Positions 3,315 to 57,940 of a DNA stretch of 64,000 bases are shown piece after piece. The position numbers and the translations under genes are program-made. The DNA is from Saururus chinensis (Eukaryota > Streptophyta > Magnoliopsida > Piperales > Saururaceae): positions 40,385,719 to 40,449,718 of the forward strand of contig CP141141.1 in NCBI GenBank assembly GCA_035235625.1. Reading direction: 5' to 3'. Each line of letters opens with the position of its first letter. The first letter of the stretch is position 1. The notes under the pieces are model-generated. The model was not told where the DNA came from. It ran no database searches and saw only the letters and a program-made list of their open reading frames with translations.

Positions 3315-3548
3315 ATAGGCTTCTCATCCCCTGCGCAGTCGAGTCACTATCAGCTAGACGACCTGCTGGAGTGTAATTGGTCAACAGGGCAGCTGGAGAA
3401 GCTTCTTGGTACGTGCCAAATCAATTAAGCGTAGAAATATTCCCAGTCGTTGCTGATTGTCAATGGCATGTTACCGTGTCAATTGGTGAGACATGAGATA
3501 TCTATATTCTACTAAGAGGAACCGGAGTCCGCATGTAAATTAGTAACC
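3315..3548 (+). promoter_or_regulatory. Upstream region of the + strand LRR-RLK, start of tandem unit 1
   Basis: This 230-base region starts AATAGGCTTCTCATCCCCTG. It recurs before the equivalent receptor at 22319-22540, and its first bases recur again at the window end (63965-64000). A TATA-like 'gatatctatattc' lies about 50 bases before the start codon, matching 'gtatatctatattg' in unit 2. It marks the left junction of the repeated unit. Promoter activity is inferred from position only. Confidence 0.5.
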
Positions 3549-4120
3549 ATGGCAATTCTTCAGCAAGCTCCCTTGCTGCTTCTCTTGCTTGTAACTCTTG
3601 CTTGCGTTTCAAAATCTGCACAGACTGCCGAAGAAGCAAAAGCCCTTGTGACGTGGAAAGCTAGCCTTGTAGCTGAACCTCCTCTTATGAGGTCATGGAT
3701 CTTGCTCCCCAATAATGCCACCAGCATCACTAGCCCATGTGACTGGCATGGAATTAGGTGCAATCGAGGAGGAAGAGTGTCGGCCATAAACCTGACCAGC
3801 TCAGTGATACAAGGTAGCCTCCAGAGCTTTAACTTCTCTGCTTTCGCAGAACTCGCCTCTATCGATCTGTCTATCAATAATCTTTCAAGAGTTTTACCAC
3901 CTTCCATGTCCAACCTCACTCAACTTAGGGAATTGGACATTTCAAATAACTTCATTACAAGAGAGCTAACCCCATATCTTTTCACAAGGTGGGGACAACT
4001 TGAAATGATCCAGCTACAAAGCAATAGTCTTGTTGGAAACATTCCACCTGAGATTGGGCAGCTCAAGAACCTGCAACTCTGTTGTCTCTTTGACAACATG
4101 CTAAATGGTTCAATACCTAA

Positions 4121-4136
4121 AGAGATAGGAAATCTT
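4121..4136. repeat. Left target-site duplication of the LINE (16 bp)
   Basis: AGAGATAGGAAATCTT here and again at 7495-7510, a perfect match. The uninterrupted paralogue at 23120 carries a single copy, which fixes the insertion exactly. Confidence 0.95.
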
Positions 4137-7437: not shown

Positions 7438-8672
7438 TGTAACCCACAGCTAATTTGTTCTCACTCTAAACAAAGTTTGATGACGGTAAGGAGGAGAGAT
7501 AGGAAATCTTACAAATCTTTCCATATTAAGGTTAAGTAAGAGCAGAGGTGCAATTCCCCCAAGTTTGGGTAGATGCAGCAAACTAAGAATTTTGAACATG
7601 ATGGGAAACCAATTATCAGGCTCCATCCCAGCCTCTATGAGAAGCTTCAGGAACGAAATCATGACACTAGCAGAAATCCGGCATCGCAACATTGTCAAGC
7701 TCTATGGGTACTGCTGCCATTCTTCGTACACATTTCTGGTGTACAAGTACATGGAGAGGGGGAGCTTAGCCAGCATCTCGTGCAAAGACGAGATAGCGTC
7801 GGAGTTTGATTGGGAGAAGAGGGTGACTGCTGTCAAAGGCGTGGCAAACGCTTTGTCGTACATGCACCATGACTGCGTGCCGGCAATAATTCATCGAGAC
7901 ATCTCAAGCAACAATGTTTTGATGGATTCAGATTATGAAGTTGCGGTCTCGGATTTGGGCACTGCACGGCTGCTCAAAACTGATTCCTCGAATTGGACCT
8001 CATTTGCAGGAACCTACGGATATGTTGCTCCAGGTAAATTTTTATCACGGCCGGTAGTTAGAGGTTCATAATTTAATCTATCACCATCATCATCATCATC
8101 AAATAGCATTATGATTATTAACATCGTCTATGCCTTTTCTGACCTATACAGAGTCAGGCATTTGCTCATCTATTTCACTATAAGAAAACACATAAATACA
8201 ACTACAGCCTTCTAAATGAGGAAATAATGAACACGCAGTATTTCACAGACTTAACTACACATTTAAGTTATTAATGATCATATTGGAGTTGGTGCTTGAC
8301 TTCTGGCTTGGTTGCAGAGCCACAATGAGAGTAAACGAGAAGTGCGATGTGTATAGCTTTGGAGTTGTGGCACTTGAAATTCTGTTGGGAAGGCATCCGG
8401 GACAGCTTCTGTCTCAGACGCCGGCGATCGCAGGTGACCAAGAAGGTTCCCTCTGGAAAGATTTTCTAGACCAGCGTCTAAGAGCTCCTGCAAATGTGGT
8501 TGCAAACTCCATATCTGTGGTGGTCATGGTAGCTCAATCGTGCTTGCAGGAGAACCCTGAGTTTCGGCCTACCATGTTGCAAGTGTGTACGGAGCTGTGA
8601 AGAGGACGACCATTGACAAAGCCATTCCAGACAGCCACTTCATCTCAACCAGTGGAGCATCTACATGCTTAA

Positions 8673-9775
8673 ATAAGGGGGTAATCAAAAGCTTAGTTAC
8701 CGTAGCGTATTGTTGAAGTTGCTTCTTACTGTGAGTCTTGTAAAACTCCAAAAATGGGATTCCCTTTGTCGAACAATAATAGCTTTATTTGTTTTTTCAA
8801 AATGAAGTAATTTAGTTGAGTTCATTTTTAAAGAATTAAATAGAGCTGGGACGAAGGGATTATTATATATTTGGGATTTGGTTTAAGTCAGGTTATGTAT
8901 AAATGGAGACATTGATGAGAATTTTTTAACAAAGGCGATGGTGACCTCTTTTCCCCTCCTCTTTTTCTCTTTTTTTTTTAAGATTTTATCGTGGCCAAAA
9001 AATTGGCCCTGGAGCTCTGCTTGCGGCTAGACTGGAGAGCTCTTGCCATCAATATGGCTGCAGAGCTATGCTCGTTGCAAGAAAACTGACGCGTAGCTCT
9101 GGCTAGATTGGAGCTATGCGGCTAGAAATCTGGCTGCGGCCATGCACAGGCTGGGCCTAGCCGCGGCCAGAAAGATTTGGGCTGAAGGAGGAGGGGTGAA
9201 GAGAGGAGGAGCCGAGGACATGGGGCAGAATCCAGATCGCCTGAGTTGGCCGGTGCCGAAGAAGAAAGAGAGGGGAAGGTGGGATAAAATAAAACTAACT
9301 TTTTTTTAAGGCAGGGGGATGAGTGACAGATTGGAGTCGGTAGGGCTCTAAGTAAATAGGAAATGGGGGACATGGACAAAAACTGATGTGTGAATAGTCA
9401 CGTTCTTCGGAAAATTTCACACAATCGTAGTGATTGTTTAAGGTTTTCTGCACCAAGATTTACATTTCTTTTCATGAATAAGTTAATCCTCAGGAGCTTA
9501 CGGCCAACTCCACTCTCACTTTCTGTCGACCCCAGTAGCCTCTAGACTTTTCTCTGCCGAAGTGACTCTAGCTAACTTCCCACCCACTCTTTGCATTTCT
9601 ATGGAACTAATTCAAATCCAAAGTGACAAAAAACATGTATGTTATAGTCCCATTCTTCATATTTTCATTACCATTTTTGGAGTGTGTTTGATATAATCTG
9701 TTTACAAAGTTCACAGAGAAAAGCAACTTAAACAATACGCTATTGTAACTAAGCTTTTGATCATCCTCTTGTTAC
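8673..9775. other. Spacer between convergent LRR-RLK genes
   Basis: About 1.1 kb between the 3' ends of the two convergent receptors, with a counterpart at 42322-43401. The part from about 8985 to 9290 is purine-rich and GC-richer with many GGCC/GAGCTC words. It yields frames on both strands, but these differ between the two copies and resemble nothing known. It probably holds both 3' UTRs. Confidence 0.6.
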
Positions 9776-12700
9776 TTAATCCTGTAGATGCTGCACTGGA
9801 TTAGATAAAGTGGCTGTCTGAAATGGCTGTGTCAATGGTGGTCCTCTTGACAGCTCCTTACACACTTGCAACATGGTAGGCCGGAACTCAGGGTTTTCCT
9901 GCAAGCAATTTTGAGCTACCTTGACCACCACAGATATGGAGTTTGCAACCACATTTGCAGGAGCTCCTAAACGCTGGTCTAGCAAATCTTCCCAGAAACC
10001 TTCTTGGCCACCTGGCACCGCCAGCGTCTCAGACAGAAGCTGGACGGGATGCCTTCCAAAAAGAATTTCAAGTGCCACAACTCCAAAGCTATACACATCG
10101 CACTTCTCGTTCACTCTCATTGTGTATGCAAGCTCTGCAATCAAGCATGAAATCAAACACCAACTCCGGTATTATCATTAATAACTAAAATGTGTAGTTA
10201 AGTCTGTGAAATACTGTATGTTTATTATTTCCTCATTTAGAGGGCTGATGCGGTATTTATGCATGTGCTTCTTATCATGCAATAGCTGACCATATGCCTG
10301 CCTCTGTATACGTCAGAAAATGCATAGATGATGATAATAATCATAATGCTATTCGATGATGACAATGATGATGATGGATTATATCATGAACCTATAATCA
10401 CCGGCTGTGATAAAAATTTACCTGGAGCAACATATCCGTAGGTTCCTGCAAATGAGGTCCAATTCGAGGAATCTGGCTTGAGCAGCTTAGCAGTGCCAAA
10501 ATCCGAGACCCCAACCTCATAATCTGAATTTAGTAGAACGTTGCTGCTTGAGACGTCTCGATGAATTATTGCCGGCGTGCAGTCATGGTGCATGTACGAC
10601 AAAGCGTGTGCCACGCCTTTGACCGCATTCACTCTCTTCTCCCAATCAAACTCTGATGCTAGCTTGTCATTGCACAAGATGCTGGCTAAGCTCCCCCTCT
10701 CCATGTACTTGTACACCAGAAATGTGGATGAAGAATGGCAGCAGTACCCAAAGAGCTTGACAATGTTGCGATGCCGGATTTCTAATAGGGTCATGATTTC
10801 ATTCTTGAAGCTTCTTTCATCAACTGTTCCATCCTCTTCCATGGGGTGAAGCTTCTTTACGGCCACAACTAGACCTGATGGAAGCTGTGCCCTGTAAACT
10901 CTTCCGTAACCCCCAACTCCCACGCAGTATTTCTCATTAAAATTCTGTGTTGCAACGATAATGTCTGCATATGATATTTTCTCTTCACAGTTCCATGTAC
11001 TGACCAGAGTCCCAGACTCCATTTCATCTGGTTTTCTTTTTCTCTTGGAAGATCTCACGTATACAACCACTGGTATGAACATAAGAAGCAACAATAATGC
11101 TAGCACAAGGGGAACGACAACCCATAACACTTTTCTACGAGAGCTGCCAGAACTTTCTCGTGAAGGAGAAGGACAATCTGGGAGACCAGCTTTACCACAC
11201 AAGCCTCTGTTACCAACATATGACTGCAAAGTGGCTTGACGAAAAGCTGGGGTGTTCGGCAGAGGACCTTCCAGTTCATTGTATGATATGTCTATCGTTG
11301 ACAAGCTAGACATCCCTTCCAAAGAACCAATTACACCACCAGTGAGCAAATTGTGGGAAAGATTTAGATTTTCCAAATATCTCAGCTGCCCCAGAGAGGG
11401 TATATCTCCGGTGAGCCTGTTTACACTGAGGTCTAGCAAAATCTGAAGAGACTGCAATCTTCCAAGTTGAGATGGAATAGTTCCATTTAACGCATTCTTG
11501 CTCAATTTCAAGTAAAGAAGCTTGGAGCAGCCCTCCAATTCATTTGGTATCGGCCCTTTCAAATCATTTGAGGATAAGTCAATTCTTGCAAGATTCGACA
11601 GTGCGCCGATTTCAGGTGGTATGGAGCCAGAGATTCTGTTGTCACTCAAATTTAGATCAATTAGTAAACTCAGACTCCCCAATTCCTTTGGTATATTTCC
11701 TTCCAATTTGTTGGAAGAAAGGCCAAGTGCTTGTAGCTGAGAAAAATTCCCAACTATGGGAGGCATTGAGCCACTGATTTGGTTGACGGACAATTCTAAT
11801 TTTATCAATTTGGAACAACTTTTCCAGTTCATGGGTATCTCTCCATACAATTTGTTGTGACTTAAATCAATGTACTCAAGATTTGGGCACACAGAAAATA
11901 ATTCTGATATATTTCCAGTTAACTGGTTTTGTTGGAGTCGAACCCACTTCAAGGTTGAGCAATTTTTCAAGCTTGAAGGTATTGGACCAGTGAACTTGTT
12001 GTTCAGTGCAGCAATTTCTTCAAGGTTTCCACCCTCACAAATTCTCTGGGGCAGTTGCCCGGACAAATTATTCTCACTCACTATAAATACAGTTAGATAT
12101 AGCAGATTGGACATTTCTTTTGGTATCGTACCAGTTAATCGATTTTGAAGCATACGAAGATCGGATAGGTTTGTCAAGTTACCGAAACTGGAGGGTATCG
12201 AACCAGTAAGATTGTTGACTGATAAGCTCAGTTCAACAAGTTGATTCATATTTCCAATTTGTGGAGGTATTGAACCTGACAACTGATTTTCCAACAAGTA
12301 TAAGAGACGGAGCATGGTCAAATTTCCTAAACTCGGAGGAATGAAACCTGAAAGACTGTTGTAAGACAAATCAAGGTCAGTCAAATATAGCAAATTCCCA
12401 ATTTCTGGAGGAATTGAGCCAGACAGATGGTTATTGTAAAGGTACAGAAGACTAAGATTTGTGAGGTTTCCAACAGAGGCTGGAATGGGGCCTGATAATT
12501 GGTTTCCCTCCATGTTCAAAATTTTTAGTTTGTTGCATCTACCCAAACTTGGGGGAATTGCACCAGTAAGTCTGTTCTCACTTAACCTTAATATTGAAAG
12601 ATTTGTAAGATTTCCTATCTCTTGAGGTATCGAACCATTTAGCACGTTGTTAAAGAGACGACAGACTTGCAGATTCTTGAGCTGCCCAATCTCAGGTGGA

Positions 12701-13218
12701 ATGTTTCCAAAAAGAAGATTACTTTGTAGCTGGATCATTTCAAGCTGTCCCCACCTTGTGAAAAGATAAGGGGCTAGCTCTCCTGTAATGGAATTATTGG
12801 AAATGTCCAATTCCCTAAGTTTAGTGAGTTTGGACATGGAGGGTGGTAAAACTCCGGCAAGCTTATTGATAGACAGATCGATAGAGGCGAGTTTTGCGAA
12901 AGCAGAGAAGTTAAAGCTCTGGAGACTACCTTGTATCCCTGACCTGGTCAGGTTTATGGCCGACACTCTTCCTCCTCTATTGCACCTAATTCCATGCCAG
13001 TTACATGGGCTTGTGCTGCTGGTAGAATTATCAGGGAGCAAGGTCCATGAGCTCATAAGAGGATGTTTAGCTACAAGGCTGGCTTTCCACTTCACGAGGG
13101 CTCCTGCTTCTTCGTCACTCTGTTGGGAGTTCGCAATGGAAGCAAGAGTTACAAGCAAGAGAAGCAGAAAGGAAGCTTGCTGAAAGAGGAAGTTCTCTGA
13201 CAGAAATGCCATGGCCAT
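9776..13218 (-). CDS. LRR receptor-like kinase, MIK2-like (unit 1, intact)
   Basis: Two exons: 13218-10422 and 10134-9776, with a 287-base GT-AG intron (10135-10421) just after the GTYGYVAP block. The predicted protein is 1051 aa. From the N-terminus: signal peptide ([16 protein letters not shown]), LRRNT cap with CNWHGIRC, about 23 LRRs, transmembrane segment near residues 693-719, then a kinase with glycine loop GVGGYGRVY (about 764), VAVKK (about 785), HRD (about 886), DFG (about 906) and APE-equivalent. All catalytic motifs are present, so it should be an active RD kinase at the plasma membrane. The family includes Arabidopsis MIK2, which perceives secreted peptides; the ligand here is unknown. 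An upstream in-frame Met at 13293 adds 25 residues, but the Met at 13218 puts the signal peptide at the terminus. It is convergent with the broken receptor 3549-8672. Confidence 0.93.
10135..10421 (-). other. Intron of the unit 1 receptor
   Basis: GT-AG intron in phase 1, placed between the activation loop and the P+1 loop. All four receptor copies in the window share this position. It contains a variable ATC/ATG trinucleotide run. Reading into it gives the tail [11 protein letters not shown], which is not coding. Confidence 0.85.
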
Positions 13219-13826
13219 TGTTGACAAGCGGCTTCCGGATCTTCCTAGTAGTTTGAAATACCGTCTGGTGCATGATATCCCATCACTTGCCATTGTACGT
13301 TGTAATATGCAATTGACTATGGTAACAACTGGGAATTTCTACCCCTTCATTGTTGATTGATTCTTTTGGTACGTAGGAAGCTTCTTTTCCGCCGTCCCTG
13401 CTTGACGAGGCTGTAGCCTGTAGGCCAGCCATGGATCGTGACTGGACTACTTGAGCGAAGAAAAGCCGTCCCCAGGGAGTTCTTTTACTGAAAATGATGG
13501 ATATCAAAGTGAACCCAGTCAGAGCATTTGCCTTTATGTCAGCCGTTGTGTTTTCCTCGCAAGATCACTGAAGTGATTTTCTCACATTCACATGGGAGAT
13601 AATCACAACCAATTTTTTAGCATTTGCCTTCCAATATCTTCTTGTAAGTGATCAGATAAAATAATCTGCTTCCATCCGCATTCTTCTGTTTCTAGATGCT
13701 TGACCCACCACCAAGCATTCATCTGGCAAAACAAGTGGATGGAAAACTCCATTTTCAGCGTCAGTGTTATGGAATTTTACAAACGTGGCTATTTTCACCT
13801 CATTGAATAATTCTCGTATCTCTCCG
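13219..13826 (-). promoter_or_regulatory. Upstream region of the unit 1 receptor
   Basis: Upstream sequence conserved with 46846-47454 in unit 2 at high identity, including the optional upstream start codon at 13293. No unambiguous TATA box or cis-element can be singled out. Confidence 0.45.
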
Positions 13827-13941
13827 CTGATATCCCTACTCCGAATCTTTTACACCATCCCTACATCGCTGAACTGTCACCAATCATAATTTACCACGTC
13901 ACACCTTACTACACAGGAAACACGTCACACCCATTCTTACA

Positions 13942-14757
13942 TTGCACCTATTCCTCCCCCACTCCTGCTCGCCGGCCCGACTCCCCCCCCCCCCCCCACC
14001 ATCCAACCTCTCCACCACCCTAGAGAAGGCCGGATGCTGGACATTCGCGGCGCTGCTCGGGAAGACCGGGGTGATGAAGACATACGAGAGCACTATTGGT
14101 ACAGGGCTCACCGTCTTTGCGCCGTCCGATGAGGCCTTCAAGGCTCCCAGCGTGCCGGATATCGGAAAGCTGAGCAGCGCCGAAGCGGTGGCGCTGCTAC
14201 TCTATCACATGCTCCCAGAGTACGCCCCCTCAGCGACGCTGAAGTCCTCCGGTGGCCGCCCGTTCGACACTCTTGCCACGAACATCGCTTCTAAATACGA
14301 GCTCTCCGCCACCGGCGACCACATCGCAATCCACGCCGGTGCAAGCACCACTAAAGTGACAACAACGGTGCTGGACGCGCCTCCAGTGGCAGTTCACGTA
14401 GTCGACAGCATGCTTCTCCCGCAGGAGCTCTTCGGGAAGGCTCCGTCCCCGGCCCAGCGGAACGCATCCTCGCCATCTCCAACGCCCACTCATACTCCGA
14501 CCCACTCGCCTCCAGCGGCGGCGCCTTCTCCCAGAGGCGACACCAAATCACCTCCCGCTCCGCCGCAGCCGCCGTCGTCGCCGTCGTATTCGCCAGAGCC
14601 CTCTATCTCACCTGCAGATGACAATACGCCTTCCTACGCAGGGGAGGGGAGATGGGGGGCATCGTTTGAAGCTCTTGTTGCAGTCTGTTGTAATGGGTTC
14701 GTGGGCAGTGGCCATGTCTCGCTTTTGACGACGGAAATGATCGATAGCAGCCATTGA
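13942..14757 (+). pseudogene. Captured fasciclin-like arabinogalactan protein fragment
   Basis: An open frame holding one complete FAS1 domain: the start (NLSTTLEKAGCWTFAALLG), the H1 box (LTVFAPSDEAF), the central YH motif (LLLYHMLPEY) and the H2 box (VHVVDSMLLPQELF). A Pro/Ser/Thr-rich arabinogalactan-type stretch follows (APSPAQ onward, SPSPTPTHTPTHSPP). It matches the second FAS1 domain plus AGP region of two-domain FLAs. The signal peptide and first domain are absent, and no start codon precedes the domain. The C-terminus lacks a hydrophobic GPI signal. Codon use is far more GC-rich than the neighbours. It lies inside the Pack-MULE-like element and is absent from unit 2. A truncated copy, still open for about 270 codons. 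Confidence 0.85.
13983..13997. repeat. Poly-C tract (15 C)
   Basis: A homopolymer within the captured FLA block. Its length is doubtful in any assembly. Confidence 0.85.
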
Positions 14758-15009
14758 TGGCTTATATATTCTTATAGGCTTTCAACTTGTGGGCATTTTG
14801 GCTCTTGTTTGCTGACTCTTGTATGCTTGCTTGCTTAGTTTACTGCCATTGGATTTGTAGCTGTTTTGGTTCATATATTTTTATAGCTTGTTGTGCTTAG
14901 TTTATAGCAGAAATTAAAACGAAAACTTGTTTGCTGTCTATCTTGTTTGTTTCATGGGCATGATGCTTGGAGAAGAGCAGAAACATCCATGATGGTGGTT
15001 GGTCTGCTG

Positions 15010-15329
<320 letters not shown>

Positions 15330-15335
<6 letters not shown>

Positions 15336-15593
15336 TGCTGCTGATGAAGGTGCTCCCTGTCTGCCCGCCCGGGCCGGTGAGGAACGGCGCATTGTTGCCG
15401 TTGTTGTTGAGGATGGTAGCTCTGTTAGCTCCAGTGGCGAACGGGATGTTGCCATTGGGGAGGGGGACCCCGCCGTTGACCGGGAAGATGCCGCCGTTAG
15501 GCTTGCCAAAGGCAGGCCGTTGGTCGAGGTGGTTGCCACTAGGCCTGTGACGGTCCTGGCTGAGGCATGCAACCCGCCCAGTATATCGTGCAT
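15330..15593 (-). pseudogene. Captured dirigent protein fragment
   Basis: The minus strand starts MHDILGG, then SARTVTGLV. It continues in a second frame as AFGKPNGGIFPVNGGVPLPN, then IPFATGANRATILNNNGNN and PFLTGPGG. This is the N-terminal part of long, Asn/Gly-rich dirigent proteins (ESB1/DIR10-like), which begin the domain with FxMHDILGG and carry PFAKPNG repeats. A single frame change separates the two parts. The beta-barrel region is missing. Located inside the Pack-MULE-like element. Confidence 0.75.
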
Positions 15594-15696
15594 GAAGAAG
15601 GTGAAGACTCGTGGTGATTAGCGCGCGTAAAAGATGAGTGCCACGTGAGCACGGTGTAAGGAGGGGTGTAGAGATGCAGAGTACAAATATCATTTT

Positions 15697-16987
15697 CCCT
15701 ATTTATGGTTTCCCGACCTTATCTAGTAAACTTTCTCACTCATCCCTTACATCTAAAAAAATATTCTACCTCTCATTATCTTACGTTGGCCAATGCCACC
15801 AAGCCGCCTACGGCCCCCCTCCTCAGGCAGCCTACCCCGCCCACCTGCCTACCTCCTTGGCCGTGGGCCTGCGGCAAGGCTATCTAGTCGGAGTTAGCCT
15901 AGTCCTAGCCGCTGCCAAGCGGTCTCGCTGCAGCCTGCTTAATGCTAGCTGCAACAAGATCTAGTTGCGGTTAATTAGTCGCGGCTAGGCTCAGATCTAG
16001 CCACTACTAGGCTTTTTTGATAGGCAGGTGGCCATGGTAAAATCTGAAAGAAATGAGAGAAAAAGAAGGGGGAGAAGAGGTCATCGTTGGAGTTAAAAAA
16101 TGTTATTTTGAGAAAAAAGAATAAGGTTCATATTTAGAGAAATAGGAAGAAAATAGTAGAGGAAACATAAAAATTGAGGTTAAAAAACATATTTTTACTT
16201 TAGTTACTTTGGGAGGAGTTTACTAGGGTTTAAATAGCTTCATCCTTTAATTTATTAGTAATCCCTGCTATTTTTTTAAAGGGTGGTTGCGTGAACATCA
16301 ATAAATTCCTAAATATTTTTTAATTTATTTTTTATTAATGAATTTTTTTTGTGCCAAAGAGTTTCGTGGGTTAAATGCCGCGTTTTTTTTTACCTTTTGC
16401 TCAATCAACTGTTAATCGAACATTGAAGGAGAGAAAAGGTCACTTTCTCGGACCGGTTTTGACCACAAAAAAGCACACGGTATCTGTATACGCGTTGCTT
16501 TTGATGAAATCTAAGTCGCCCCTAGTACGGTATCTGACACAGTTAGATGTGACATTGGAGCTCAGCGACATGGTTACGAGTACGTGAGGAAGAAAACCAG
16601 GTGGAAGAGGCCCACGGTATAGTCTTTAACACGTTAAATGATTCTCACCGTAACTTCATTGCAACGCCCACACTTTTCTTTCTCCAGAAATGAAACCCAT
16701 ACAAAAGAAAGAAGAAAAAAAAGTGTAAAAGGGTCTTCCCTCTCAACTCCAAAATGAACTTCCAGGAAACATACCATCCTTTTCCTATTGGATTCTCCAC
16801 TCAACAACCACGTGATGAATGACTTTGTTGAATCTATCCAATGGTTCCATGTATTGTGCCTTAAATCCATCAACGTCGCGTTCCTTTGGAGACACAAGTC
16901 AACATTAGCTGTCAGGATTTGTACTATATGGAAGCTGGCATGTATATATAACTCAAGTGGCTGGCTCAACTTTCATTTGTATTTGAG
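15697..16987. other. Intergenic region upstream of the peptide gene
   Basis: Counterpart of 47455-48423 (left part) and 59505-59793 (right part). Positions 15790-15990 are GC-richer and look codon-like (AYGPPPQAAYP), but indels between the units disrupt the frame, so it is not taken as a gene. The last 250 bases form the promoter region of the peptide gene. Confidence 0.5.
16943..16951 (+). promoter_or_regulatory. TATA box of the unit 1 peptide gene
   Basis: TATATATAA about 40 bases before the start codon at 16988. The same box sits at the same spacing in unit 2 (59749-59757). Confidence 0.55.
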
Positions 16988-17530
16988 ATGAGCGGAGACA
17001 CGGGACGATCCTTTACCCTTGCAATCCTTTTCATAACATTGCTTTTTGCACCTGCTATAACTCAAGGGAGATAAGTTTATGAGTATTTCGTTTTCCTGTA
17101 TTTTGACTTTTTTTACAAGCAGCCGTGTTATATCTTATGCAGGACTAGGGCTGAGTGGGAAGAAGTACAGGAGAGAACTGGCCTCTTTAGATACCTCAGA
17201 GGTAAATTTCAATCTTCAACCATTTTCCTTTAGAGGCATTTCGCATCTTGTGGCTCATGTCTACGCTAGCTCTGAATTCTAAATCATCATGGGTGGTCTT
17301 AGGTGGAGTACGAGGAAGGAAAGGTTACGAGGATACACGGTGACTACAATCCACCCACGCACAGCATGAATGGCAGAGGGCCGCAGCTCCCTCCAGGGAA
17401 CGGCAGAGAGCCGCAGTTCCCTCCAGGGAACGGCAGACATGGGCCGCTCATCCCTTCAGGGCCCCCCTCGGATTCCAATTATTCTCCTAATCCCACTACC
17501 CCACCGGAGGCGGAGGCACCCCCTCAATGA
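16988..17530 (+). pseudogene. Small secreted proline-rich peptide precursor, unit 1 (splice donor lost)
   Basis: Three exons by comparison with unit 2: 16988-17066, 17143-17201 and 17303-17530. Exon 1 gives a clean signal peptide (MSGDTGRSFTLAILFITLL, then FAPAITQ). Exon 2 is basic, then acidic (LSGKKYRRELASLDTSE). Exon 3 begins VEYEEGKVTRIHGDYNPPTH and continues Pro/Gly-rich with tandem PPGNGR repeats (30-base units), ending PSGPPSDSNYSPNPTTPP. The mature chain would be secreted. Tyr flanked by acidic residues suggests sulfation, as in DY-motif peptide hormones. The exon 1 donor reads AAG|GG instead of AAG|GT, and reading through hits TAA two codons later, so this copy is probably defective. 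I do not recognise the family. Confidence 0.6.
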
Positions 17531-21380: not shown

Positions 21381-22540
21381 TCCTAAAAATAAGATTTATT
21401 CTTTGCAATCTTAATTTGTCTGTTCCTTTTGTCCCTCAATTCCTTCTTGTAGTATAATAACAGTTTTTTACCTTGCCGCATTATTTATATTATTTGATTA
21501 TTCTAATTATGGCTCAAGTATGTTATTAATATCATTTATTTGGTTAATAGCTTTTGTATTCAAAATCTCTAGGTTTCTTAATAACGAACTTCTCATGTCC
21601 TTGATGTATTGAAGGTCATTTATTTATGAATGCAAGACTTAATTTTTCTCTCATTATTGAAAACCTTATTCAATTTATTATTCATTATAAAAAATTATAG
21701 AGTTATCACTAATTTAACTTTTCTACTACTACTTAGAGCAATTGTGGTAATCAGCCCTTCAGCAGGCAATTCCGCGGATTTGAAAGATTTATGGCGGTTG
21801 ACCTAAAGTCAGCGATTGACTGCCGCATTCTTTTATACATTTTACCAATTAAAAGAACTTGATTCCATGGCTGGAGCTGGATGTTCATGTCCCAGATCGA
21901 TAGAAGGACATTGATTGTCAGCAAAGCCAAGCAGAGATGGCCTAATTTATGTTCAAGGCTCCAGGCATGGCATGCTATCCGCTAGCCTTGGTCAGCATGA
22001 TCCATCATTTTCAATTACAGACATAAATACGATTATCACAAATCATGTTGTTCCTAAAATAGTCATGGTATGTGATTCTTTGGGAGTGGGTTTCTAAAGA
22101 AATTATCCCCCTCGAGTCCACCTACATTCAATATATGCTTACAACAGCGCCTGTAAATCTACAAGGTAAGGATCAGTCAGTCAATGGTATCCCAGTATCC
22201 CAGCCTATATGGTAAGCTACAACAAATGGGATTGAAATCTGAGCAATAAAAGCCGCGAGTAACGTACGTGGGCCGAGATTAGCTCCAAGAGAAGGATTTA
22301 GATATCATGTCCTGACTCCCAATAGGCTTCTCATGCCCTGTTCAGTCGAGTCACTATCCTTGGCTGAGCTAGACGACCTCAAGGACTCTTATTGGTCAAG
22401 CACGGCAGTCGGAGAAATATTCCCCGTCGTTGCCGATTGTCAATGCCTTGAAACCGTGCCAATTGCTGGGACATGATGTTCGACACAGTATATCTATATT
22501 GTACTACGAGGAACCGGAGTCCGCATGTAGCTCAGTAACC
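21381..22540 (+). promoter_or_regulatory. Intergenic region and upstream region of the unit 2 + strand receptor
   Basis: Positions 21381-22318 match 63025-63964. From 22319 the sequence matches the region before the unit 1 receptor (3315), so the unit junction falls here. A TATA-like 'agtatatctatatt' lies at about 22488, roughly 50 bases before the start codon. A 60-codon frame at 21915 is probably not a gene (see rejected items). Confidence 0.5.
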
Positions 22541-24738
22541 ATGGCAATTCTTCAGCAAGCTCCCTTGCTGCTTCTCTTGCTTGTAACTCTTGCTTGCATT
22601 TCAAAATCTGCACGGAGTATCGCCGAAGAAGCAAAAGCCCTTGTGACGTGGAAACTGGAAAGCCAGCCTTGTAGCTGAACCTCCTCTTACGAGGTCATGG
22701 ATCTTGCTCCCCAATAATGCTACCAGCATCACTAGCCCATGTAACTGGCATGGAATTAGTTGCAATAGAGGAGGAAGAGTGTCGGCCATAAACCTGACCA
22801 GGTCAGGGATACAAGGTAGCCTCCAGAGCTTTAACTTCTCTGCTTTCTCTGAACTCGCCTCTATCGATCTGTCTATCAATAATCTTGCCGGAGTTTTACC
22901 ACTCTCCATGTCCAAACTCACTAAACTAAAGGAATTGGACATTTCCAATAATTCCATTACAGGAGAGCTAGCCCCTTATCTTTTCACAAGGTGGGGACAG
23001 CTTGAAATGATCCAGCTACAAAGCAATCTTCTTGTTGGAAACATTCCACCTGAGATTGGGCAGCTCAAGAATCTGCAAGTCTGTCGTCTCTTTAACAACA
23101 TGCTAAATGGTTCGATACCTCAAGAGATAGGAAATCTTACAAATCTTTCAATATTAAGGTTAAGTGAGAACAGACTTACTGGTGCAATTCCCTCAAGTTT
23201 GGGTAGATGCAACAAACCAAAAAATTTGAACATGTAGGGAAACCAATTTTCAGGCCCCATCCCAGCCTCTATGGGAAACGTTACAAATCTTCATCTTCTG
23301 TACCGGTACAGCAACACTCTGTCTGGCTCAATTCCTCCAGAAATTGGAAATTTGCTATATCTTACTGACCTTGACTTTTCTGACATCGGTCTTTCAGGCC
23401 TCATTCCTCCTAGTTTAGGAAATTTGACCAGGCTTGGTTCCTTATACTTGTCCAAAAATCAGTTAACTGGTTCAATTCCTCCAGAAATTGGAAATATGAA
23501 TAAACTTGTTAACATAAGCTTATCAATCAACAATCTTACTGGATCGATACCCTCTAGTTTCGGCAACTTATCAAACCTATCCGATCTTCGTATGCTTCAA
23601 AATGGATTGACTGGTATCATACCAAAGGAAATGTCCAATTTGCTATATTTAACTGTATTTTTAGTGAGTGAGAACAATTTGTCAGGGCAACTGCCCCAAG
23701 GAATTTGTGAGGGTGGAAAACTTGTACGTATTTCAGCATACATCAACAATTTCACTGGCCCAATACCTTCAAGCTTGAAGAATTGCTCAACCTTGAAGTG
23801 GGTTCGACTCCATCAAAACCAGTTAACTGGAAATATATCAGAATTCTTTTCTGTGTGCCCAAATCTTGAGTTCGTTGATTTAAGTCACAACAAATTGTAT
23901 GGAGAGCTGCCCATGAACTGGAAAAATTGTTCCAAATTGACAGAACTAGAACTATCCTCCAACCAAATCAGTGGCCCAATACCTCCCACACTTGGGGATT
24001 TGGCTCAGCTACAAAACTTGGCCTTTCTTCCAACAAATTGGAAAAGAAGATACCAAATGAATTAGGGAGCTTGAATTCACTAATTGATCTGACTTTGGAT
24101 GATAACAAATTGGAAGGGCCGATCCCATATGAATTAGAGGGCTGCTACAAGCTTCTGTACTTGAAACTGAGCCAAAATTCTTTGGATGGAAGTATTCCAT
24201 CTCAACTAGGAAAAATGGTGTCCCTCCAGATTTTGCTAGACCTCAGTGAAAACAGGCTCACTGGAGAAATACCCCCACTTGGGCAGCTGCGAAATATGGA
24301 AAATCTCAATTTTTCCCACAATTTGTTCACTGGTGGGGTAATTAGTTCTTTTGAAGGGATGTCTCGCTTGTCAACGATAGACCTATCATACAATGAACTG
24401 GAAGGTCCTCTGCCGGACACCTTAGCCTTTCGTCAGGCCACTTTGAAGTCATTTGTTGGTAACAAAGGCTTGTGTGGTAAAGCTGGCCTCCCAGATTGTA
24501 CGTCCCCTTCACGAGAGAGTGCTGGCAACTCTCGTACAAAATTGTTATGGGTTTTCGGTCCCCTTCTGCTAGCATTATTGTTGATCGTTATGTTCGTAGC
24601 AGTGGTTGTATATTTGATATCTTTCAAGAGAAAAAGAAAACCAGATGAAATGGTGTCCGGGACTCCGGTTAGTGCATGGAACTGTGAAGAGAAGATATCA
24701 TATGCAGACATTATCGTTGCAACACAAAATTTCAATGA

Positions 24739-24747
24739 GAATCACTG
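24739..24747. repeat. Left target-site duplication of the MULE
   Basis: GAATCACTG here and GAGTCACTG at 41182-41190: 9 bases with one mismatch, the length usual for Mutator-like insertions. The uninterrupted paralogues run straight through this site. Confidence 0.85.
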
Positions 24748-41181: not shown

Positions 41182-42321
41182 GAGTCACTGCGTGGGAGTT
41201 GGGGGCTATGGAAGAGTTTACAGGGCACAGCTTCTATCCGGTCTGTGTGTGGCCGTAAAGAAGCTTCATCCCATGGAAGAGGATGGGGACCAGAGAAGCT
41301 TCAGGAACGAAATCATGACACTGGCAGAAATCCGGCATCGCAACATTGTCAAGCTCTATGGGTACTGCTGCCATTCTTCGTCCGCATTTCTGGTGTACAA
41401 GTACATGGAGAGGGGGAGCTTAAAAAGCATCTTGTGCAATGACACGATAGCATCGGAGTTTGATTGGGAGAAGAGGGTGAATGCTGTCAAAGGCGTGGCA
41501 CACGCTTTGTCGTACATGCACCATGACTGCATGCCGGCAATCATTCATCGAGACATTTCAAGCAACAATGTTTTGCTGGATTCAGATTATGAAGTTGCGG
41601 TCTCGGATTTTGGCACTGCTCGGCTGCTTAAAACTGATTCCTCGAATTGGACCTACGGATATGTTGCTCCAGGTAAATTTTTATCACGGCCGGTAATTAT
41701 AGGTTCATAATATAATCTATCACCATCTTCATCATCATCAAGTAGCATTATGATTATTAACATCATCTATGCCTTTTTCTGACCTATACAGAGTCAGGCA
41801 TTTGCTCATTTATTGCACTATATGAAAACACATAAATACAACTACAGCCTTCTAAATGAGGAAATAATGAACACGCAGTATATTTCACAGACGCAACTAC
41901 ACATTTAAGTTGTTAATGATCATATTGGAGTTGGTGCTTGACTTCTGGCTTGGTTGCAGAGCTTGCATACACAATGAGAGTAAACGAGAAGTGCGATGTG
42001 TATAGCTTTGGAGTTGTGGCACTTGAAATTCTGTTGGGAAGGCATCCGGGACAGCTTCTGTCTCAGACGCCGGCGATCGCAGGTGACCAAGAAGGTTCCC
42101 TCTGGAAAGATTTTCTAGACCAGCGTCTAAGAGCTCCTGCAAATGTGGTTGCAAACTCCATATCTGTGGTGGTCATGGTACCTCAATCGTGCTTGCAGGA
42201 GAACCCTGAGTTTCGGCCTACCATGTTGCAAGTGTGTACGGAGCTGTCGAGAGGACGACCATTGACAAAGCCATTCCAGACAGCCACTTCATCTCAACCA
42301 GTGGAGCATCTACATGCTTAA

Positions 42322-43401
42322 ATAAGGGGGTGATCAAAAGCTTAGTTACAGTAGCGTATTGTTGAAGTTGCTTCTTACTGTGAGTCTTGTAAAACTCCAC
42401 AAATGGGATTCCCTTTGTCGAACAATAATAGCTTTATTTGGTTTTTCAAAATGAATTAATTTAATTGAGTTCATTTTTAAAGTATTAAATAGAGCTGGGA
42501 CGAAGGGATTATTATATATTTGGGATTTGGTTTAGTCAGGTTATGTAAAAATGGAGACATTGATGAGAATTTTTTAACAAAGGCGATGGTGACCTCTTCT
42601 CCCCTCGTCTTTTTCTCTTTTGTTTTATAGATTTTATCGTGGCCAAAAAATTGGCCCTGGAGCTCTGCTTGCGGCTAGACTGGAGAGCTCTTGCCATCAA
42701 TATGGCCGCAGATCTATGATCCTTGCTAGAAAACTGGCCCAGAGCTCTGACCAGATTGGAGCTCTGCGGCTGGAAATCTGGCTGCGGCCGTGCACATGCA
42801 GGACCTAGCTGTGGCAGACGCGGCCAGCAAGATTTGGGCCAAAGGAGGAGGGAGGAAGAGAGGAGGAGCCGAGTACGTGGGGTAGAATCCAGGTCGCTTG
42901 AGTTGGAAGGTGGGATAAAATAAAATAAAAAAAAATTTAAGGCGGGGGAAGAGTGATAGATTGGAGTAAATAAGAAACGGGAGACATAGAAGAAAACTGT
43001 TGTGTGAATAGCCACACATTTCTTTAGAAAATTTCAAACAATCGTAGTGATTTGTTTAAGGTTTTCTGCACCGAGATTTACCTTTCTTTTCATGAATAAG
43101 TTGATCCTCAGGAGCTTGCGGCCAACTCGACTCTCATCCCCTCACTTTCTGTCGACCCGAGTAGCCTCTAGACTTTTCTCTGCCGAAGTGACTCTAGCAA
43201 ACTCCCCACCCACTCTTTGCATTTCAATGGAACTAATTCAAATCCAAATTGACAGAAAGCATGCATGATAAAGTCCCATTCTTCATATTTTCATTACCAT
43301 TTTCGGAGTGTGTTTGATATAATCTGTTTACAAAGTTCACAGAGAAAAGCAACTTAAACAATACGCTATTGTAACTAAGCTTTTGATCATCCCCTTGTTA
43401 C
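42322..43401. other. Spacer between convergent receptors, unit 2
   Basis: Counterpart of 8673-9775, with an extra deletion near 42910 relative to unit 1. It should hold the 3' UTRs of both receptors. A 159-codon minus strand frame at 42536-43015 is not kept open in unit 1 and is not taken as coding. Confidence 0.6.
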
Positions 43402-46400
43402 TTAATCCTGTAGATGCTGCACTGGATTAGATAAAGTAGCTGTCTGAAGTGGCTTTGTCAATGGTTGTCCTCTTGACAGCTCCTTACACACTTGCAACAT
43501 GGTAGGCCGGAACTCAGGGTTTTCCTGCAAGCAATTTTGAGCTACCTTGACCACCACAGATATGGAGTTTGCAACCACATTTGCAGGAGCTCCTAAACGC
43601 TGGTCTAGCAAATCTTCCCAGAAACCTAATTGACCACCTGTCACCGCCAGAGTCTCAGACAGAAGCTGGCCGGGATGCCTTCCAAAAAGAATTTCAAGTG
43701 CCACAACTCCAAAGCTATACACATCGCACTTCTCGTTCACTCTCATTGTGTATGCAAGCTCTGCAATCAAGCATGAAGCCAAACACCAACTCCGGTATTA
43801 TCATTAATAACTAAAATGTGTAGTTAAGTCTGTGAAATACTGTATGTTTATTATTTCCTCATTTAGAGGGCTGATGCTGTATTTATGCATGTGCTTCTTT
43901 TCATGCAATAGCTGACCATATGCCTGCCTCTGTATACGTCAGAAAATGCATAGATGATGATAATAATCATAATGCTAATTGATGATCGACGACGATGATG
44001 ATGGATTATATCATGAACCCTATAATCACCGCTGTGATAAAAATTTACCTGGAGCAACATATCCGTAGGTTCCTGCAAATGAGGTCCAATTCGAGGAATC
44101 TGGCTTGAGCAGCCTAGCAGTGCCAAAATCCGAGACCCCAACTTCATATTCTGAATTTAGTAAAACGTTGCTGCTTGAGACGTCTCGATGAATTATTGCC
44201 GGCATGCAGTCATGGTGCATGTACGACAAAGCGTGTGCCACGCCTTTGACCGCATTCACTCTCTTCTCCCAATCAAACTCTGATGCTAGCTTGTCATTGC
44301 ACAAGATGCTGGCTAAGCTCCCCCTCTCCATGTACTTGTACACCAGAAATGTGGATGAAGAATGGCAGCAGTACCCAAAGAGCTTGACAATGTTGCGATG
44401 CCGGATTTCTAATAGGGTCATGATTTCATTCTTGAAGCTTCTTTCATCAACTGTTCCATCCTCTTCCATGGGGTGAAGCTTCTTTACGGCCACAACTAGA
44501 CCTGATGGAAGCTGTGCCCTGTAAACTCTTCCGTAACCCCCAACTCCCACGCAGTATTTCTCATTAAAATTCTGTGTTGCAACGATAATGTCTGCATATG
44601 ATATCTTCTCTTCACAGTTCCATGTACTGACCAGAGTCCCAGACTCCATTTCATCTGGTTTTCTTTTTCTCTTGGAAGATCTCACGTATACAACCACTGG
44701 TATGAACATAAGAAGCAACAATAATGCTAGCACAAGGGGAACGACAACCCATAACACTTTTCTACGAGAGCTGCCAGAACTTTCTCGTGAAGGAGAAGGA
44801 CAATCTGGGAGACCAGCTTTACCACACAAGCCTCTGTTACCAACATATGACTGCAAAGTGGCTTGACGAAAAGCTGGGGTGTTCGGCAGAGGACCTTCCA
44901 GTTCATTGTATGATATGTCTATCGTTGACAAGCTAGACATCCCTTCCAAAGAACCAATTACACCACCAGTGAGCAAATTGTGGGAAAGATTGAGATTTTC
45001 CAAATATCTCAGCTGCCCCAGAGAGGGTATATCTCCGGTGAGCCTGTTTACACTGAGGTCTAGCAAAATCTGAAGAGACTGCAATCTTCCAAGTTGAGAT
45101 GGAATAGTTCCATTTAACGCATTCTTGCTCAATTTCAACTCAAGAAGCTTGGAGCAGCCCTCCAATTCATTTGGTATCGGCCCTTTCAAATCATTTGAGG
45201 ATAAGTCAATTCTTGCAAGATTCGACAGTGCGCCGATTTCAGGTGGTATGGAGCCAGAGATTCTGTTGTCACTCAAATTTAGATCAATAAGTAAACTCAA
45301 GCCCCCCAATTCCTTTGGTATATTTCCTTCCAATTTGTTGGAAGAAAGGCCAAGTGCTTGTAGCTGAGAAAAATTCCCAACTATGGGAGGCATTGAGCCA
45401 CTGATTTGGTTGACGGACAATTCTAATTTTATCAATTTGGAACAACTTTTCCAGTTCATGGGTATCTCTCCATACAATTTGTTGTGACTTAAATCAATGT
45501 ACTCAAGATTTGGGCACACAGAAAATAATTCTGATATATTTCCAGTTAACTGGTTTTGTTGGAGTCGAACCCACTTCAAGGTTGAGCAATTTTGCAAGCT
45601 TGAAGGTATTGGACCCGTGAACTTGTTGTTCAGTGCAGCAATTTCTTCAAGGTTTCCACCCTCACAAATTCTTTGCGGCAGCTGCCCGGATAAATTATTC
45701 TCACTCACTATAAATACAGTTAGATATAGCAGATTGGACATTTCTTTTGGTATCGTACCAGTTAATCGATTTTGAAGCATACGAAGATCGGATAGGTTTG
45801 TCAAGTTACCGAAACTGGAGGGTATCGAACCAGTAAGATTGTTGACTGATAAGCTCAGTTCAACAAGTTGATTCGTATTTCCAATTTGTGGAGGAATTGA
45901 ACCTGATAACTGATTTTCCAACAAGTATAAGAGACGAAGCATGGTCAAATTTCCTAAACTTGGAGGAATGAGGCCTGAAAGACTGTTGTAAGACAAATCA
46001 AGGTCAGTCAGATGTAGCAAATTCCCAATTTCCGGAGGAATTGAGCCAGACAGATGGTTATTGTGAAGGTACAGAAGATCAAGATTTGTGAGGTTTCCAA
46101 CAGAGGCTGGGATTGGGCCTGATAATTGGTTATCCACCATGTTCAAAATTCTTAGCATGTTGCATCTACCCAGACTTGGGGGAATTGCACCAGTGAGTCT
46201 GTTCTTACTTAACCTTAATATTGAAAGATTTGTAAGATTACCTATCTCTTGAGGTATCGAACCATTTAGCATGTTGTTAAAGAGACGACAGACTTGCAGA
46301 TTCATGAGCTGCCCAATCTCAGGTGGAATGTTTCCAACAAGAAGATTACTTTGTAGCTGGATCATTTCAAGCTGTCCCCACCTTGTGAAAAGATAAGGAG

Positions 46401-46845
46401 CTAGCTCTCCGGTAATGGAATTATTGGAAATGTCCAATTCCCTAAGTTTAGTGAGTTTGGACATGGAGGGTGGTAAAACTCCGGCAAGCTTATTGATAGA
46501 CGGATCGATAGAGGCGAGTTCTGCGAAAGCAGAGAAGTTAAAGCTCTGGAGACTACCTTGTATCCCTGACCTGGTCAGGTTTATGGCCGACACTCTTCCT
46601 CCTCTATTGCACCTAATTCCATGCCAGTTACATGGGCTTGTGCTGCTGGTAGAATTATCAGGGAGCAAGGTCCATGAGCTCATAAGAGGATGTTCAGCTT
46701 CAAGGCTGGCTTTCCACTTCACGAGGGCTCCTGCTTCTTCGTCACTGTGTTGGGAGTTCGCAATGGAAGCAAGAGTTACAAGCAAGAGAAACAGAAAGGA
46801 AGCTTGCTGAAAAAGGAAGTTCTCTGACAAAAATGCCATGGCCAT
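43402..46845 (-). CDS. LRR receptor-like kinase, MIK2-like (unit 2, intact)
   Basis: Same structure as the unit 1 copy: exon 1 46845-44049, intron 43761-44048 (288 bases, GT-AG), exon 2 43760-43402, predicted 1051 aa. It has a signal peptide, LRRNT cap (CNWHGIRC), about 23 LRRs, one transmembrane helix and an RD kinase with [25 protein letters not shown] and the GTYGYVAP loop. About 30 residue differences separate it from the unit 1 protein, most of them in the first half of the LRR domain; the kinases differ at only a few positions. One LRR Leu is Pro here (ASIDPSINK). The upstream Met at 46920 gives a 25-residue extension as in unit 1. Cell-surface signalling is expected; the ligand is unknown. 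Confidence 0.93.
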
Positions 46846-48423
46846 TCTTGACAAGCGGCCTCCGGATCTTCCTAGTAGTTTGAAATACCGTCTGGTGCAT
46901 GATATCCCATCACTTGCCATTGTAAGTTGTAATATGCAATTGACTATGGTAACAACTGGGAATTTCTACCCCTTCATTGTTGATTGATTCTTTTGGTACG
47001 TACGAAGCTTCTTTTCCGCCGGCCCTGCTTGACGAGGTTGTAGCCTGTAGGTCAGCCATGGATAGTGACTGGACTACTTAAGCGAAGAAAAGCCGTCCCC
47101 AGGGAGTTATTTTACTGAAAATGATGGATATCAAAGTGAACCCAGTCAGAGCATTTGCCTTTATGTCAGCCGTTGTGTTTTCCTCGCAAGATCACTGAAG
47201 TGATTTTCTCACATTCACATGAGAGATAATCACAACCAATTTTTTAGCATTTGCCTTCCAATATCTTCTTGTAAGTGATCAGATAAAATAATCTGCTTCC
47301 ATCCGCATTCTTCGGTTTCTAGATGCTTGACCCACCACCAGGCAATCATCTGGCAAAACTAGTGGATGGAAAACTTCATTTTCAGCGTCGGTGTTGTGGA
47401 ATTTTACAAACGGGGCTATTTGCACCTCATTGAATTATTCTCGTATCTCTCCTCTATTTATGGTTTCCCCGACCTTATCTAGTAAACTTTCTCACTCATC
47501 CCTTACATCTAAAAAAATATTCTACCTCTCATTATCTTACGTTGGCCAATGCCACCAAGCCGCCTACGGCCCCCCTCCTCAGGCAGCCTACCTGCCTACC
47601 TCCTTGGCCGTGTGCCTGCGGCCAGGCTATCTACTCGGAGTTAGCCTAGTCCTGGCCGCTGCCAAGCGGTCTCGCTGCAGCCTGCTTAATGCCAGCAGCA
47701 ACAAGATCTAGGAGAAAAAAGCAGGTGGCCATGGTAAAATCTAAAAGAAATTAATGAGAGAAAAGGAAGAGGGAGAAGAGGTCATCGTTGGAGTTAAAAA
47801 ATGTTATTTTAAGAAAAAAGAATAAGGTTCATATTTTAGAGAAATAGGAAGAAAATAGTAGAGGAAACATAAATGAGGTTAAAAAACATATTTTTACTTT
47901 AGTTAGTTTGGAAGGAGTTTACTAGGGTTTAAATAGCTTCATCCTTTAATTTATTAGTAATCCCTGCTATTTTTTTAAAGGGTGGTTGTATGAACATCAA
48001 TAAATTCCTAAATATTTTTTAATTTATTTTTTATTAATGAATTTTTTTTGTGCCAAAGAGTTTCGTGGGTTAAATGCCGCGTTTTTTTTTTTTTTACCTT
48101 TTGCTCAATCAACTGTTAATTAAACATTGAAGGAGAGAAAAGGTCGCTTTCTCGGACCGGTTTTGACCACAAAAAAGCACACGGTATCTGTATACGCATT
48201 GTTTTGATGAAATCTAAGTCGCCCCTGGTATCTGACCCAGTTAGATGTGACATTGGAGCTTAGCGACATGGTTATGAGTACGTGAGGAAGAAAACCAGGC
48301 CCACGGTATAGTCTTTAACACTTTAAATGATTCTCACCGTAACTTCATTGCAACGCCCACTCTAACTTTTCTTTCTCCATAAATGAAACCCATGCAAAAT
48401 AAAGAAAGAAAAAAAAAGAGTAA
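46846..48423. other. Upstream region of the unit 2 receptor and shared spacer
   Basis: Matches 13219-13826 and then, directly joined, 15697-16720 of unit 1. The junction near 47455 is the empty site of the Pack-MULE-like element. No gene is seen. Confidence 0.6.
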
Positions 48424-48899
48424 TAGTACTTGTACTGACGTCAGGTTCCATACGTGATGAATTTACTTTATTTTCAAAACCGTTAATTAGTTTGGTCACA
48501 AAAATCGGCCCTATTAATCAATACTATTGGATGGAACGTGGGTGAAGTGGGTTTATTACGTATAAATATTCAATATACTCCAATACCATTTTATGCCAAA
48601 AAATTATATAAGTAGAAGAAAAACATGTTAGATGTCTCTCTCTTATATTGTCTTCTTTGTATGAGCTAATTTTTCTATATAATATCTTGTATCCATATGA
48701 TCTATTTTTTAATTGTAGACCGGTAACTTCCTGTCAAAGTTGGAATATGGCCAGAATGTCGGCGTATCTTAGTTATACGAACTCTAATATGCAGACCAAC
48801 AAAAGTGCCTATATCTTTCACACTTTACGTGTTACGGGAGTGAGGCTGAGACATATAGAAATCATTGTCTTTGGGGGATTACATGCTTATGGGATGAAT

Positions 48900-50600: not shown

Positions 50601-50744
50601 TTTGATGTTTTTCTGGGTGATTTACCCCACTCCAAACCTTCTTTTCTATGTTTTAAACCTACTTTAGCCTATTCAAAAAGTAAATGTAGCTAAATCAAGA
50701 GTACTCTATATTGTGGGAGGGTCAGTTTTGAGAGATAACTATCC

Positions 50745-50945
50745 TAGAGAGGTAAAAGTCTCAGAGTGAGGGAAGTCTCGGAGTGAGGGGAGGTTTTGTT
50801 CATCGCCTCTAAGCCTCAAAGAGTGAAAGTTCTAAGGTTAGAGGAGACTCTACCTATCACCTCTGGGCCTCATAGAAAGAAAATCCAGGGGTGAGGGAAG
50901 ACTTTGTCCACTACATCAAGGCATCAAAGAGAGAAAGTCCTTTTT
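50745..50945. repeat. About 66-bp degenerate tandem repeat, three copies
   Basis: A unit of the type GTGAGGGAAGTCTC, CGCCTCTAAGCCTCA and AAAGAGTGAAAGT repeats three times with substitutions. Low-complexity flank of the fossil; no coding. Confidence 0.6.
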
Positions 50946-51273
50946 TTGAATTAGAGGCTCTATCTGTCACTACTTCCAAAAAATCTCAAGGGCATAAGGG
51001 TAAGTGGTATTAACTTCTAATTTCATACTATGACTATACCTTGCTTTCTATAACTTTCTTGTATCCTAAGAGTCTATTTTGAAAAGAAAAACATTGTCAA
51101 TGCAGTTAGCTTATGGGCTATCCCCTATCATTTTCAAACAAGTAATGATGTCGTAAGAATAACATCTTGTTATACTGCATAATGGAATTTTGTCGTAATA
51201 CAAACTTTTGCATATTATTATATCATATCAATGATATTTTGAATGTTTCAGATGATCAAATTTGCAGGGTAGT

Positions 51274-56046: not shown

Positions 56047-56089
56047 ATTATGATATGTAAAGGTCTTTGTGTTACTTACTGGTCACATC

Positions 56090-57102: not shown

Positions 57103-57141
<39 letters not shown>

Positions 57142-57920: not shown

Positions 57921-57936
57921 CTATATATATAATATA

Positions 57937-57940
<4 letters not shown>

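Follow-up and report, generated by a model that had tools for sequence, protein, structure and literature searches.

Receptor and peptide genes of the C2 array

The window analysed here, i.e., the complete 64,000-nucleotide stretch C2:40385719-40449718 of the Saururus chinensis assembly, contains two units in which a leucine-rich repeat (LRR) receptor kinase gene on the minus strand is accompanied by a small peptide gene on the plus strand. The full-length receptors of contig C2 are termed R1-R3 and a further C2 receptor R0; the peptide copies are P1-P5 on C2 and P6-P8 on C9. Genome searches took in the 516-Mb assembly (11 contigs), with the best 150 candidates scored per list in the receptor searches, and "nearest receptor" refers to the matches listed. 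The two units of the window comprise the following features:

10422..13293, minus: R1 exon 1, LRRs and start of the kinase (open frame; Pfam LRR/Pkinase; best PDB match MIK2; splice GYVAP/ELAY)
10421..10135, minus: R1 intron (exon join GYVAP/ELAY)
10134..9779 plus stop (9776..10134), minus: R1 exon 2, end of the kinase (in-frame join to exon 1, 1076 aa)
13825..15696, no strand assigned: 1.87-kb stretch in the R1-P1 interval, containing a fasciclin-domain open reading frame (ORF; Pfam Fasciclin) and present in unit 1 only; units 2 and 4 continue without it
16988..17066, plus: P1 exon 1, hydrophobic, signal-peptide-like N-terminus, donor GG not GT (alignment with P2 and six copies)
17143..17201, plus: P1 exon 2 (conserved in the seven copies read)
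17303..17530, plus: P1 exon 3, with EYEEG, GDYNPP, a Pro-rich stretch, SDSNYSPNP, PPEAEAPP and stop (sequence comparison)
44049..46920, minus: R2 exon 1, unit 2 (96.8 % to R1 over 969 aa)
43402..43760, minus: R2 exon 2 with stop, unit 2 (splice-joined reading)
48423..59534, no strand assigned: ~11 kb between R2 and P2, missing from unit 1 (48.7-56.1 kb of it common to unit 4)
59794..59872, plus: P2 exon 1, unit 2, canonical GT donor (copy alignment)
59949..60007, plus: P2 exon 2 (copy alignment)
60109..60366, plus: P2 exon 3 with stop (copy alignment)

R1 (13293..9776, minus) is an intact gene of two exons for an LRR receptor kinase of 1076 aa, with Pfam matches to LRR, LRRNT_2 and Pkinase and with all kinase landmarks (VAVKK, HRD, DFG, APE) present. 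Its best match among solved structures is Arabidopsis MIK2 (8web, E 5.4e-155). R2 (46920..43402, minus; unit 2) and R3 (C2:40514071..40510561 plus stop; unit 4) are as intact as R1, and the pairwise dN/dS values of R1-R3 are 0.34, 0.43 and 0.39. An ectodomain tree was calculated from 23 rows representing 22 genes (L023 and L051 both being R3), with MIK2 as the only Arabidopsis row and limited to rows of >500 aa (the C1 receptor L033 was therefore left out). Here, MIK2 and ten rows form one group (fork 98/98) apart from the other LRR receptor-like kinases (LRR-RLKs) of the genome; its members are R0-R3 (C2), L027, L030, L032 and L034 (C1) as well as L028 (C8), with the C6 receptor L031 standing outside. 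Since MIK2 falls into one 98/98 group with R0-R3, and R1-R3 are intact, the label "MIK2-like" holds for R1-R3 at the level of ectodomain phylogeny. Hou et al. (PMC8448819) require an identity of 60 % or more with Arabidopsis MIK2 for orthology, which does not apply here, the identity being ~42 % over 645 aa of ectodomain.

The peptide genes begin with an exon for a hydrophobic N-terminus; a short exon of basic character follows, and then a proline-rich one in which EYEEG, GDYNPP and SDSxYSPxP blocks are found. Two queries taken from exon 3 retrieved an identical set of seven places in the genome, of which five are on C2 and two on C9. As the eighth copy, P6 was recognized beside the C9 ones by its similarity in exons 1 and 2; it is broken, without an exon-2 donor and with little of exon 3 left. 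The family thus comprises at least eight copies, since relatives whose exon 3 deviates strongly could escape these queries, and three weak extra matches (E about 4 for two of them, E 0.64 and a stop for the third) are not counted. Owing to its truncated exon 3, P6 is omitted from the alignment, dN/dS and divergence tables, which use 7/8 copies. All seven copies read are free of cysteine and have the Asp-Tyr at the identical place. The putative signal peptide was judged from N-terminal hydropathy (best 11-residue mean 2.78-3.23 in the seven copies). Counted from the first Met, the precursors measure 99-106 aa in five copies, 121 aa in P1 and 131 aa in P2. The peptide has no match at E 1 in Pfam or in a PDB sequence search.

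The span that starts at the Asp-Tyr codons and reaches the EAEA block amounts to 165, 195, 120, 120, 114, 111 and 114 nt in the seven copies, all in frame, while the two introns (76-89 and 83-101 nt) vary freely and by other amounts than the exon-3 block. Because exon-3 length changes stay in frame while the introns do not follow them, the copies are, as judged from this pattern, a coding family. Pairwise dN/dS ranges from 0.36 to 0.88 (median 0.51, 21 pairs), with the maximum between P3 and P7. In the middle of exon 3, P1 (17344-17405) and P2 (60150-60241) are strongly different, P2 being 30 nt longer; their introns differ at 1/177 sites.

The first donor of P1, the copy flagged by the sequence-only reading, reads CAAG/GGAGAT, i.e., GG in place of the GT present in the other 7/8 copies. 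P1 exon 1 contains no GT, and every GT of the intron follows the in-frame TAA at 17072. Because the donor is GG and no usable alternative GT precedes this stop, P1 is probably dead; P2 (59794..60366) represents the intact peptide copy of the window.

A family in decay and mostly without function would account for the two broken copies among eight (P1 by its donor; P6 by the missing exon-2 donor and the truncated exon 3), for the loss of the first ATG in 3/8 (P4, P7 and P8, where the start would be codon 5) and for the high dN/dS of the P3-P7 pair. It is nevertheless very unlikely, given GT-AG introns and an open frame in 6/8 copies, in-frame exon-3 length changes on both sides and dN/dS values of 0.35-0.65 in 18/21 pairs. 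A doubtful alternative is that the product is proline-rich and secreted but has no role in signalling (a wall or antimicrobial peptide), its gene lying beside the receptors by chance. The Pro-rich tail, the divergent exon-3 middle of P1 and P2 next to nearly identical introns, and the lack of Pfam and PDB matches are consistent with such a product, whereas the conserved EYEEG, GDYNPP and SDS together with the basic KKYRRE resemble processed precursors, a resemblance only.

Colinear units and unlinked copies

Four colinear receptor-then-peptide units are arranged on C2, two inside the window and two downstream. Units 1 and 2 align over receptor, flank and peptide in the self-alignment of the window, R3 can be aligned together with its flanks to R1 and R2, and the R3-P4 stretch aligns in order with the R2-P2 stretch (50610-56096, 85-90 %). 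Near P3 (unit 3) a receptor fragment with matching flank is present. Both genes look intact in 2/4 units: unit 1 combines an intact receptor with a broken peptide gene, unit 3 a receptor fragment with an intact peptide gene, and in units 2 and 4 both are intact.

The peptide start lies 3.7 kb from the receptor start in unit 1, 12.9 kb in unit 2 and 14.7 kb in unit 4. Since units 2 and 4 largely share the ~11 kb that separate R2 from P2, unit 1 most likely lost this segment, and its 3.7-kb spacing would be derived. The notion of unit 1 as an ancestral head-to-head promoter was rejected on account of this flank alignment with unit 4. Joint duplication of R3 and P4 is further in line with fitting divergences, namely 0.110 [0.074-0.145] for the R1-R3 intron vs 0.120 [0.092-0.146] for P1-P4 noncoding sites; the further values of 0.148 (R introns) and 0.115 (P) also fit.

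Four of the eight peptide copies (P5-P8) were found without a receptor beside them, three of them (P6-P8) on C9. In the 51 kb of the P6-P8 region (C9 8.68-8.72 Mb; 198 bases unread) tblastn gave no receptor match at E 1e-3, and blastn against the receptor flanks retrieved at most one or two pieces of ~147 bases. P6-P7-P8 resemble P3-P4-P5 of C2 in the same order, and the divergence of P4 is smaller from P7 (0.068) than from P1 (0.120) or P2 (0.115). From this order and these distances, the C9 copies appear to stem from a block that lost, or never carried, the receptor. Around P5 (C2), no receptor match was obtained in the 9 kb read; the nearest receptor among the matches listed is R3, ~43 kb off and beyond P4.

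Receptors without peptide copies occur as well. The MIK2-group receptors on C1 (four in the tree) and C8 (one) have no peptide match near them in the genome searches, and the 10 kb upstream of two of the C1/C8 receptors contain only Pro/Ser-rich matches (best E 8e-4), of low complexity by eye. For R0 (C2:40352 kb) the nearest peptide match is P1, ~49 kb distant. Linkage hence does not extend to all copies, as, among the matches listed, P5-P8 and the C1 and C8 receptors stand alone.

The C9 region (L015-L020, C9:8679000-8730000) represents a receptor-free three-copy peptide array, with ORFs of Copia-like elements (named by eye) between the copies.

These results bear unequally on the sequence-only reading. 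Its MIK2-like receptor is borne out by the intact 1076-aa R1 and the 98/98 group with MIK2, its Asp-Tyr motif by the constant Asp-Tyr (7/7 copies). Of the proposed secreted three-exon proline-rich peptide, the three exons and the Pro-rich exon 3 stand, while "secreted" corresponds to a hydrophobic N-terminus only. Co-duplication of receptor and peptide is confirmed by the colinearity of units 1, 2 and 4, and of unit 3 with its receptor fragment. The statement that each unit couples intact genes does not hold in unit 1 (GG donor of P1) and unit 3 (receptor fragment). A ligand-receptor cassette staying together, as had been proposed, is not supported in view of P5-P8 with no adjacent receptor among the matches listed, of the C1/C8 receptors without a peptide match and of the broken P1 donor. 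The proposal had named related species with the receptor array but no nearby peptide gene as one refutation; receptors of this kind, and the reverse case, both occur within the own genome of the array.

Probable passive linkage and a possible receptor-ligand pairing

The arrangement is probably best explained by one chance neighbourhood that was amplified by segmental duplication, resulting in passive linkage of a receptor gene and an unrelated secreted-peptide gene. In the ancestral block, an LRR receptor kinase gene of the MIK2 group would have occupied the minus strand, with a small secreted-peptide gene unrelated to it lying upstream on the plus strand; segmental duplication of this block would have generated the tandem array. 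The receptors may be working, ligand-sensing receptor kinases of the immune type, and the peptide gene may encode a secreted precursor, proline-rich and free of cysteine, that has a function of its own. Linkage would have arisen once and then been copied passively, so that the two genes need not interact. Copying by itself accounts for the recurrence of the linkage in these colinear duplicates, which therefore represents a single event instead of four. The genes also decayed independently, since the P1 donor was lost beside an intact R1, and P3 is intact beside the receptor fragment of unit 3; this, together with the unlinked copies, shows that neither gene depends on having the other adjacent.

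Alternatively, the two genes could form a ligand-receptor cassette, in which the processed peptide, perhaps sulfated at the GDY tyrosine, would be sensed by the neighbouring MIK2-group receptors in a phytocytokine loop. Joint duplication in four units (two with both genes intact), a receptor group that includes the receptor of SCOOP peptides, and precursors sharing outer features of PROSCOOPs (PMC6382344) with SDS in 7/7 copies speak for such a cassette. It is unlikely in view of the receptor-free peptide copies, the broken P1 and the findings on the SxS motif and its pocket.

According to PMC11331138, the SCOOP SxS motif is held by MIK2 residues D246, N268, S292, H294 and H316 (S5/S7 pocket). 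In a gap-free alignment, the corresponding positions are occupied by E, Y, D, S and Y in R1, by V, Y, D, S and Y in R2 and by E, Y, D, S and Y in R3, i.e., 0/5 pocket residues are kept in each of R1-R3. At the last four positions, Y-D-S-Y is common to R0-R3 and to L027, a C1 receptor lacking a peptide neighbour, which speaks for passive linkage; L028 (C8) has Y-A-S-Y and L032 (C1) S-S-W-A. Unlike MIK2, R1-R3 thus have none of the SxS-pocket residues, at an ectodomain identity of ~42 %, and on these residues they are no SCOOP receptors of known kind. No established ligand is known for MIK2-group receptors outside the Brassicales, and none was noticed in the literature listings retrieved. SCOOP perception and PROSCOOPs are reported from Brassicales only (PMC11331138).

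PROSCOOPs are described as having two to three exons, 72-117 aa, a signal peptide and no cysteine, and as forming a tandem array (PMC6382344). The P copies are similarly short, cysteine-free, three-exonic and arranged in tandem arrays, with a putative signal peptide judged by hydropathy and an SxS motif in the form of SDS in 7/7 copies read; when the same residues are shuffled, 45-74 % of the sequences hold an SxS. As a sign of SCOOP kinship the motif is weakened by these shuffles and by the loss of the receptor pocket, and the likeness to PROSCOOPs, SDS included, is suggestive but weak. MIK2 is located on Arabidopsis chromosome 4. The Arabidopsis PROSCOOP arrays are found on chromosomes 1 and 5 (PMC6382344); unlike this separation of MIK2 and PROSCOOPs on different chromosomes, P1-P4 share contig C2 with the receptors.

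One may speculate that MIK2-group receptors outside the SCOOP-sensing clade share a duplicating block with their own ligand precursor, a peptide family free of cysteine and bearing Asp-Tyr and SxS, that the changed pocket (Y268/D292/S294/Y316 in MIK2 numbering) reads the peptide, and that the C9 copies are unlinked ligands of the C2 receptors; this scenario is considered improbable.

The P copies were also compared with Asp-Tyr-containing and other signalling peptides. The PSK pentapeptide YIYTQ is found in 0/7 copies. RGF/GLV peptides are of the C-terminal DY...HN type, and an HN ending of this type was seen by eye in none of the P tails. Sulfated Asp-Tyr peptides such as PSY and CIF resemble the P copies in that a proline-rich stretch follows the conserved Asp-Tyr. 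The P copies differ from PSY in that its motif DYXXXX[AP]NXXHXP (PMC7913133) occurs in 0/7 copies. Relative to CIF/TWS, the P copies contain the DY, but their precursor tails, compared by eye, have none of the IPN, PH or EH ends given for the CIF peptides listed in PMC11534595. The string RIHGDYNP matched no paper in a literature search.

Linkage of receptor and ligand genes had been regarded as unusual in plants, which must be qualified by a linked case already known, the S-locus of crucifers with its SRK and SCR genes (PMC2650789). There as here, a receptor kinase gene and a secreted-peptide gene lie side by side; the differences are that linkage on C2 is loose with some P copies unlinked, and that SCR is cysteine-rich whereas the P copies are cysteine-free. 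With other tandem LRR-RLK arrays, the C2 array shares local duplication, fragments and transposon inserts, but its repeated block differs in carrying an unrelated secreted-peptide gene. Titles and abstract beginnings retrieved for MIK2 arrays and linked ligand-receptor genes mentioned no MIK2-peptide cassette.

Several observations weigh against passive linkage or the equal age of its parts. That both genes are intact in units 2 and 4 after joint duplication is also expected of a selected pair, and the unlinked copies can be reconciled with a diffusible ligand acting far off on near-identical receptors. At the pocket positions the C1 receptors L032 and L034 differ, so that Y-D-S-Y is no group-wide mark. 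With respect to age, the 5' flanks of R1-R3 give lower values (0.059 and 0.070), dS is unequal (R1-R3 0.066, P1-P4 0.330), and units 1 and 2 diverge by 0.014 [0.005-0.025] in the noncoding part of P vs 0.059 [0.035-0.087] in the R intron. Such a mismatch could result from gene conversion, uneven constraint or separate duplication of parts. A separate duplication of R3 and P4 was considered for this reason, as receptor flanks and dS do not fit the P divergences; against it stand the colinear intergenic stretch (85-90 %) and the fit of the R introns (0.110, 0.148) with P (0.120, 0.115). Joint duplication of R3 and P4 is kept because of the colinearity, the divergence mismatch weakening the equal-age claim and not the colinearity itself.

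The co-duplicated family offers two concrete candidate pairs, R2 with P2 and R3 with P4. Should the pairing prove false, the array would provide a clean example of segmental duplication making unrelated neighbours resemble a cassette.

Other features of the window

Two further receptor loci on the plus strand were recognized by alignment:

22410..24747, plus: 5' part of a second-type MIK2-like receptor, with stop and frame break (sequence alignment)
41187..42393, plus: 3' (kinase) part of the second-type MIK2-like receptor, separated from the 5' part by a 16.4-kb insert
3430..4136, plus: 5' part of a receptor remnant (alignment)
7495..8744, plus: kinase part of the receptor remnant (alignment)

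The 16.4-kb insert in the second-type receptor (24747-41187) carries pieces of a MuDR-type transposase (32.4-34.4 kb) and an ORF for an Ulp1-type protease (30.6-31.1 kb). Two head-to-tail copies of ~905 bp with 99.4 % identity (33680-35490) lie in the transposase region and may reflect a recent duplication or an assembly slip. The receptor remnant (3430-8744) is missing its middle part and has a 3.3-kb interruption with reverse-transcriptase and endonuclease ORFs.

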